Shown here piece by piece: positions 28,998-33,382 of a stretch of 64,000 nucleotides of DNA (position 1 is the first letter of the stretch; every line of letters begins with the position of its first letter). The translations under genes and the position numbers were made by a program. The notes below the pieces were generated by a model, which saw only the letters and a list, made by a program, of their open reading frames with translations, ran no database searches and was not told the origin of the DNA. The stretch comes from Blastocatellia bacterium. GTDB taxonomy: Bacteria > Acidobacteriota > Blastocatellia > Chloracidobacteriales > JADJPF01. Where the stretch lies: the NCBI GenBank assembly GCA_025057015.1, contig JANWYG010000019.1, forward strand, positions 62,001 through 126,000, read 5' to 3'.

Positions 28998-29061
28998 CCT
29001 GTCAATGCTAAGACGAGTATCAGCTGCTCTGTTTTAATCTTCTCTACTTATGGAGGGGTTG

Positions 29062-29901
29062 ATGAGATTGCTCGTGATAATATTGTTTGCTTTGCCGGTA
29101 GCGGCTCAGCAGTATCTTACTGGAAATATAGAATACATCCGAGGTTTTCGCTCCACAGTGCTGTCTAATAGTCGGGATATTATAATCTATTTGCCACCAG
29201 ACTACTATCGCAGTAATGCGCAGTATCCAGTCTTTTACATGCATGACGGGCAGAATCTGTTTGATGGCAACACCTCGTTTATTCGAGGTCAGGAGTGGCG
29301 CGTCGATGAAACGGCCGAGCAATTGATCTCTGGCGGTGAAATAGAACCGATAATAATAGTCGGCGTATATAATGCGGGCTCTCAACGTATCTATGAGTAT
29401 ACACCTACCGTGGATGAAACTTTTCAGGCTGGTGGTGGGGGAGACCTATACGGCAAGTTTCTGGTCGAGGAGCTAAAGCCTTATATAGACTCAAAATATA
29501 GGACGCTTAAGGCGGCAGAACACACTGCTTTAGGAGGGTCTTCTCTTGGTGGTTTGATCACTATCTATTTAGGTCTAAAGTATCCTCAAGTCTTTGGCAA
29601 GTTAGCCGTAATGTCTCCGTCAGTCTGGTGGAACTCGCGGTACATTCTCGGCTACGTGAATTCGTCGGCGAAAGTAAACTGTAAGATATGGGAAGATGTA
29701 GGTACGAGCGAAGGATCTGACTTTACGACCAAACAGATGGTCAAGCTTGATGCGAGGAAACTTCGTGATGCACTTATCAAAAAAGGTTGGGAACTTGGAA
29801 AGGATCTTGTGTACTTTGAGGCTAAGCGAGCTCAGCATAATGAGGCTGCCTGGGCAGCACGCATGCCTGAAGTGCTTAAATACTTGTTTCCAAAGAAATG
29901 A
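29062..29901 (+). CDS. Exported esterase (enterochelin esterase/esterase D-like)
   Basis: 279-residue alpha/beta hydrolase. The ATG at 29062 is chosen since a GGAGGGG site lies right before it and the signal peptide starts there (MRLLVIILFALPVAAQ). The nucleophile is in GGSSLGG near 155; the hydrophobic oxyanion strand is YFHDG-like (YMHDGQNLFDG); the likely catalytic His is in AQHNEAAW near residue 260. Family members hydrolyse esters of enterochelin, feruloyl groups or acyl sugars; the substrate cannot be deduced. Confidence 0.85.
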   Translation: MRLLVIILFALPVAAQQYLTGNIEYIRGFRSTVLSNSRDIIIYLPPDYYRSNAQYPVFYMHDGQNLFDGNTSFIRGQEWRVDETAEQLISGGEIEPIIIVGVYNAGSQRIYEYTPTVDETFQAGGGGDLYGKFLVEELKPYIDSKYRTLKAAEHTALGGSSLGGLITIYLGLKYPQVFGKLAVMSPSVWWNSRYILGYVNSSAKVNCKIWEDVGTSEGSDFTTKQMVKLDARKLRDALIKKGWELGKDLVYFEAKRAQHNEAAWAARMPEVLKYLFPKK

Positions 29902-29907
29902 CCTTCT

Positions 29908-30902
29908 ATGGCTACGCTTTATCTTACCGAACAAGGAGCAACTCTGCATAAGGAGTCAAAGCGTTTCATAATAGAGCTAGCTGGGGAGGTACTCGCTGAA
30001 ATTCACGAGTTCAAAGTTGATCGTGTGGTTATCTTTGGCAACGTTCAATTAACTACTCAGACGATAGCGTTTCTTTTTCAAAGCGCATAGACACGGCATT
30101 TATGACTCTGCAGGGTCGGTTGAAGGGGCGGCTAACGCCTATAGAGTCTCGTGACATACCTCTGAGATTGCGTCACTATGAGCTTTCACAGAAACCTGAG
30201 TTTGCCCTAGAGATCTCTAAGCGCATAGTAGAAGGTAAGATAGCTAATTCTATAGCTATGCTTGCGCGCTATCAGCGCAATCACCCAGAAGTATTTTTTG
30301 ATAGTCATATTGAGCGGCTATCATTGCTGCATGAAGAAGTTTTTCGCAAACGCACTCTAGATAGCCTCAGAGGTGTTGAGGGTCAAGCTGCTGCTTTGTA
30401 CTTTGAGTGCTTCGGAAGTATGAGCAAATCTGCTGAAACTTTCATCCGCAAGCGGCGCCCACCTACAGATCCTGTTAATGCCTTGCTCAGCTTTGGGTAT
30501 ACTTTGCTCTATAATGAAGCAATAGGTGTACTTTCGATTAGTGGCTTTGATCCTTACCTGGGGTTCTTCCATGGAATAAACTACGGTCGCTGCTCGCTTG
30601 CCCTTGACCTTATAGAGGAATTTAGACATGTAGTGATTGACCGGCTAGTGATAACTAGTATCAATCTCGGAGTATTCCAAGTTCAACACTTTGAAGTAGG
30701 GCCTGAAGGTGGCTATTATCTCAAGGAAGAGCCCCGGAAGCGATTTCTCAAAGAGTATGAGAAGTTTATGACTTCGAAGTTTGAACACGGACGCGCAGCT
30801 GAACGTACTTGTTTTCGTAAGGCATTGCACGAGCAGGCACTAAAGCTTCAGAAAAGCATCCTTGAGCGGAAAGATTACGAACCTTTTAAGGGATGGAGAT
30901 AG
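29908..30902 (+). pseudogene. cas1: CRISPR integrase Cas1, frameshifted
   Basis: Cas1 inserts spacers into CRISPR arrays. The first 60 codons (29908-30087) encode the beta-domain start, MATLYLTEQGATL and VVIFGNVQLTTQ, then a TAG at 30088. The rest follows in the -1 frame: restoring one A joins SAIDTAF to MTLQGRLKGRL, for a total of 331 residues, the usual Cas1 length. The C-terminal domain keeps the metal-site motifs: Glu in LYFECF, His in GFFHG, Asp in LALDLIEEFRH. So the break is the only visible defect. No cas3, cascade, csm or CRISPR repeats lie in the window. It follows the esterase gene by six bases, with no RBS visible. Confidence 0.85.
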
Positions 30903-30925
30903 GGTTGTAAAGAAAGGGAGGTCGT

Positions 30926-31048
30926 TTGAGTGAGCATCGAGATTCGACCGTCTTCTATGTCTTGGCCTACTTGACAATCTAAGCAGAGCTAGCAAGAGGT
31001 TTTAGTCTCTACTGTAGAGAAAGTGCACTTCCGGTCAAGAACTTTCCG
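30926..31048 (+). pseudogene. Possible degraded cas2 remnant
   Basis: Just after cas1, and behind a GGGAGG ribosome site, a TTG start reads LSEHRDSTVFYVLAYLTI then stops (31 codons at most). FYVLAY is the first strand of many Cas2 proteins, whose next residues are usually D-I. Downstream in the same frame, AELARGFSLYCRESAL resembles the Cas2 'RxKLAxxLxGFGxRVQxSVF' stretch. The agreement is partial and the frame is broken, so this remains a weak call. Confidence 0.33.
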
Positions 31049-31339
31049 CTACTCCAAGAGCTTACGTACAGCTTCTCTCTGTCGGTCTTTAGATATCAGA
31101 AGTTAAAAACTCCCTGTCCTTTGAGCCACGGCGCATACATTCAAGAGGAACGATTCTAGCAGATATGAATCCTGTAAAGCTTTACAGGTCTAAGGCAAGA
31201 CGTAGCTGTAAGAAGGTCGTTTTCTTGGAGATAGTATTTAGGCACTTCGGGCGTGTAGGCTGCCTAAGCGGAGCTTTGTCAGGAAGCTTAGTCTTGCTGC
31301 AGCCTTGCGAAAAAGTAGTCATCCTAGGGTACGTTCTTG

Positions 31340-31345
31340 TATAAT
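31340..31345 (+). promoter_or_regulatory. Candidate -10 box upstream of the VWA genes
   Basis: Perfect TATAAT, about 48 bases before the ATG of the first VWA gene. No good -35 box is seen at the right distance, so the call is tentative. Confidence 0.33.
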
Positions 31346-31393
31346 CTGTGTTTGGTAACTTTAATGGTGAGAAATAACTGTGCTTGAAGGGTT

Positions 31394-33363: not shown

Positions 33364-33382
33364 CTGAAAAGCTGAGGTGTGT

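Follow-up and report, generated by a model that had tools for sequence, protein, structure and literature searches.

We analysed a window of 64,000 nucleotides, positions 62001-126000 of contig C3 in an assembly (G000) of 3.33 Mb that comprises 23 contigs and is 97 % complete. Near the middle of the window a complete putative esterase gene (PF00756, E 6e-33) ends 6 bases upstream of the start codon of a cas1 gene, which is read in two overlapping fragments and followed by a stretch free of genes. The features of the locus are as follows:

29050..29901, plus strand: putative esterase gene, complete
29801..29926, plus strand: left arm of an inverted repeat, running from the esterase 3′ end across the spacer into the first cas1 codons (shuffle-tested score)
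29908..30090, plus strand: cas1 5′ fragment of 60 codons, N-terminal domain, with a TAG end after the frame break
30081..30902, plus strand: cas1 3′ fragment of 273 codons, catalytic domain, with its own ATG at 30102
30084..30089, plus strand: site where one base is lost; relatives have Gly-Ile codons here (frame-aware alignment)
30903..31393, no strand: gene-free stretch of 491 bases, with none longer in the window outside the tRNA cluster (ORF map)
31190..31325, minus strand: right arm of the inverted repeat, a decayed inverted copy of the esterase-cas1 junction (alignment)

The 5′ fragment corresponds to positions 1-55 of the Pfam family Cas_Cas1 (E 1.4e-9) and the 3′ fragment to positions 57-283 (E 9.3e-71). 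Relatives were counted among 58 genomes of one class, this genome included and none of the same genus, and the closest relative of the cas1 gene is that of G018 with 59 % identity and the same start and end; the 5′ fragment is 72 % identical to it over 57 amino acids and the 3′ fragment 58-59 %. Frame-aware alignment against the closest intact relative gave a single one-base-deletion shift and no stops over 330 aligned codons, and eight of eight intact cas1 controls showed no shift under the same alignment. The break hits a Gly-Ile-Asp common to all 12 aligned relatives, while the residues Glu 30378-30380, His 30570-30572 and Glu 30615-30620, which we take to form the Cas1 metal site, are invariant across all 13 aligned rows. 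The initial annotation had described a cas1 at 29908-30902 split by one missing base and retaining all metal-site motifs, and the end-to-end Pfam match, the alignment and the invariant residues bear this out. Its proposal to add one A near 30087 holds for the loss of one base but not for the base itself, as relatives have Gly at the broken position, which an A does not give, and the identity of the missing base is not readable from this sequence alone. Such a loss would sever the catalytic domain from the N-terminal domain of Cas1, the protein that together with Cas2 inserts spacers into the CRISPR array. We considered programmed frameshifting and rejected it, with no slippery heptamer in the right register found by eye and no clear ribosome-binding site before the ATG of the 3′ fragment.

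The esterase aligns through its last residues with the esterases of two relatives (G002 and G003). The inverted repeat that spans its junction with cas1 has a score of 88 against a shuffle maximum of 50, a score reached in none of 300 shuffles. When the inverted-repeat alignment was extended by the 21 bases that follow the esterase stop, its score rose from 66 to 86, so that the inverted copy includes the junction and the copying most likely took place after cas1 came to lie behind the esterase. Longer inverted copies are unsupported: 294 of 300 shuffles reached the score for an extension within cas1, and 16 of 300 did so for one within the esterase. The core of the copy is decayed, with 56 of 75 columns matching and 2 gap runs, compared with one lesion in 995 bases of cas1, which suggests that selection kept cas1 for some time at its present place. 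Early loss of cas2 is not shown by the junction copy because cas2 of the relatives lies on the opposite side of cas1. In the three relatives from the same family the esterase and the gene at 33377 have their best matches on different contigs, so that neither a conserved neighbourhood nor an empty site was seen.

Within the 491-base gap tblastn identified no cas2 remnant, and no CRISPR repeat of the relatives was present, with best matches that fell within the shuffle range for all 14 repeats. The gap has no second copy in the genome and its RNA structure is unremarkable (z -0.87). The window showed no CRISPR-like repeat array, and Pfam identified no other cas gene among 14 further window proteins, in agreement with the initial annotation. 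A neighbouring gene of the window matches the acidobacterial VWA family TIGR03436, and two short tandem-repeat arrays with related units lie at 2121-2455.

Relatives of the cas1 gene

In a tree built without any casposase reference, cas1 falls within a clade of eight with CRISPR-linked Cas1 of the same class (support 95/93). Its sister link to G018 is weak (support 50/6), and its end branch of 0.63 is inside the range of the intact siblings and longer than that of G018 (0.28). The best named relatives are Bacterium HR08 and an Acidobacteriota MAG. In all 15 relatives whose locus is not truncated by a contig end, a cas2 gene lies ≤ 300 bases from cas1, and 12 of the 15 have an array within the stretch examined. 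Four relatives (L039, L040, L041 and L042) carry a second cas2 near the cas1-cas2 pair.

A cas1 gene lacking adjoining cas genes and with inverted repeats on both sides could be read as a casposon integrase, that is the cas1-solo of a mobile element with the repeats as its ends. The CRISPR-linked clade of this cas1 speaks against that reading, as does the absence from the genome of a family B polymerase (0 matches, where the control search was positive in 5 of 14 genomes), and the left repeat is made up of the native esterase end and the first cas1 codons, unlike a transposon end. We regard a casposon origin as highly improbable.

Type III-B remnants and other CRISPR-Cas systems in the genome

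In G018 (L062) a single run of genes comprises cmr2, other cmr genes, cmr6, a CARF gene, the gene of a Csm6 ring nuclease, a gene weakly matching DNA polymerase II, cas1 and cas2, with Cmr2, Cmr6 and Csm6 named by NCBIfam. The gene between csm6 and cas1 (L062:12103-13293) is exonuclease-like with a weak DNA polymerase II match and is a possible spacer-trimming partner. We utilized the proteins of this operon in tblastn searches that covered ~235 kb of G000, while family searches covered the whole assembly. In the stretches compared, the only G000 counterparts of the operon genes are broken pieces, which lie at three places. Besides cas1, these are pieces of cmr2, cmr4 and cmr6 at C23:161441-164530 and pieces of csm6 and cas2 at C23:148671-150004, on the strand opposite to the cmr pieces. 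The two groups of relics are ~11 kb apart, and an inversion would leave them placed in this way. In G000 cas2 comes ahead of csm6, unlike the order in relatives, a point against the origin from one operon that we favour below. An open TIGR02710 CARF gene (L059:7876-9159, equivalent to C23:167875-169158) lies ~3 kb from the decayed cmr genes and may be a surviving type III effector.

A whole-genome search with Pfam Cas2 returned only the cas2 of a type I-C system and the C23 relic, which contains three TAG. Of 23 cas2 genes compared with the relic, that of G018 scores highest (188), and the first 14 all partner a cas1 of this clade. For the csm6 relic, G017 (41 %) is a slightly closer match than G018 (38 %), and a common origin is hence not proved by this gene. 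No intact cas2 partner of the same clade was found for a type III-B adaptation module, the only such cas2 being the broken one on C23, and there are no intact cmr effector genes, cmr2, cmr4 and cmr6 being fragments. TAG recoding, raised by the several TAG stops within the relics, was rejected, TAG being the commonest stop of the window (20 of 40 long ORFs).

The initial annotation proposed a search outside the window for a CRISPR array and other cas genes, and besides the dead type III-B system the genome does contain three others, of types I-C, I-E and III-A. The type I-C system at the end of C16 consists of a run of cas3, cas8c, cas1 and cas2 (NCBIfam) beside an array that shows 5 repeats in the stretch. 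Genome-wide, the repeat end GGATTGAAAC clusters only as the I-C repeat, at the ends of C16 and C23, in orientations (L036 end, L156) that fit one array bridging both contigs. The type I-E system, near 97 kb on C23, includes cse1, cas3 and cas1 (NCBIfam). The type III-A system lies near 116-123 kb on C13 (L060:10857-17892) and encodes Csm1, Csm3, Csm4, Csm5 and a Cas6-like protein below the cut-off; this contig has no cas1 or cas2 match, and the csm operon may make use of spacers of the type I arrays.

No cas1 remnant was identified by tblastn in the searched stretches of the C23 wreck, and the other cas1 matches in the tblastn stretches were weaker and came only from the I-C and I-E genes. The missing remnant is compatible with a cas1 that came alone behind the esterase by transfer and is unrelated to the wreck, as is the location of the pieces on different contigs, each > 65 kb from the nearest contig end. 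However, the wreck has a cas2 of the matching clade and misses exactly cas1, and we consider a separate arrival decidedly unlikely. The frame break, the clade of this cas1 and the wreck at two other sites are direct observations. In our favoured reading, to which we assign a probability of roughly 75 %, the gene is a cas1 that became detached when a type III-B (Cmr) system broke up in this genome. In relatives Cas1-Cas2 adjoin a type III operon that includes the Csm6 ring nuclease, and such an operon would have been scattered in G000, with cas1 landing directly behind the esterase gene on C3 and with csm6-cas2 and cmr2/cmr4/cmr6 decaying at two places on C23. The pieces probably once formed one operon, cas1 probably reached its present site through a rearrangement, and the frame break is probably real. 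The lost adaptation module of which the initial annotation took cas1 to be a relic would most likely be the III-B cas1-cas2 pair, and the other parts of the system are pseudogenes on another contig.

Lesion load and preservation of cas1

To compare cas1 with its former partners lesions were counted in one way for all genes by frame-aware alignment, excluding cmr4, of which only ~1/3 aligns (104 codons, 0 lesions). Under this count cas1 has 1 lesion in 330 codons, cas2 has 2 in 88, csm6 has 3 in 345, cmr2 has 11 in 557 and cmr6 has 2 in 237. Nineteen of 20 intact controls had no lesions, the other being a csm6 gene with two compensating shifts. Jointly the partners carry 18 lesions in 1227 codons, a rate at which 4.8 lesions would be expected in cas1 against the one observed (probability of ≤ 1 lesion 0.066, or 0.20 when cmr2 is left out). 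These sequence comparisons suggest that cas1 outlived its partners and is better preserved, its frame perhaps lasting longer than theirs before one base was lost.

Of 69 columns without variation among the other 12 rows, the 3′ fragment departs from 3, including one at the break; the siblings depart from 0-6. In relative-rate comparisons with siblings six of seven were not significant and cas1 was faster in one (chi-square 5.76, against G004). One lesion together with sibling-like constraint indicates that the break is either recent or an assembly error, and the description of the lesion as recent in the initial annotation is in keeping with both observations. Were the break an error of assembly or sequencing, the genome would encode an intact Cas1 of the III-B clade that stands alone and could work in trans, with the Cas2 of the I-C system, for instance, or in another kind of DNA handling. 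The single lesion, the constraint on the invariant columns and the six non-significant rate comparisons would all fit such an intact gene. However, the I-C, I-E and III-A cas genes listed from the same assembly have open frames, so errors are uncommon in such genes. Moreover, Cas1 requires a fitting Cas2 in known systems; the own cas2 of this gene is dead and nothing shows a working partner. We view an error of this kind as possible but on the whole unlikely.

We further propose, as a tentative and rather doubtful extension of the favoured detachment from a III-B system, that cas1 long survived the breakup as a selected stand-alone gene without Cas2, attached to the esterase and perhaps serving the I-C, I-E or III-A systems or DNA repair, and that it is still live or only just lost. 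In the main the locus is an ordinary relic, unusual for the good state in which cas1 has survived.

Comparison with known systems

Loss of CRISPR systems is common, and to our knowledge its course has seldom been laid out within one genome. G000 holds pieces at different stages of decay, of which cas1 is apparently the best preserved, and if cas1 was indeed kept after the loss of Cas2 it would provide a natural case for testing Cas1 function without Cas2. In a literature search judged mainly from titles and the starts of abstracts, we recognised no publication describing this locus.

The best NCBIfam matches of the 3′ fragment include cas1_CYANO (TIGR04093, type I-D Cas1, E 4.6e-76) and TIGR00287 cas1 (1e-64). 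It differs from a type I-D Cas1 in falling under the I-D cut-off of TIGR04093 (255.9 against 385 bits) and in that the neighbours of cas1 in G018 are of type III-B and not I-D. According to one published account, cas1-solo genes have their cas1 away from CRISPR loci (PMC4046053), and the G000 cas1 resembles these genes and casposases in being located off CRISPR loci. It is unlike them in belonging to a CRISPR-linked clade, in a genome without PolB, and in having no transposon ends. The type III-B locus of G018 is a single run of genes, whereas the G000 genes are found at three places and are all broken, with no array of their own found in the window or among the genome-wide clusters of the repeat end GGATTGAAAC; in common with that locus G000 has counterparts of csm6, cmr2, cmr4, cmr6 and cas2, each of which persists as a relic.
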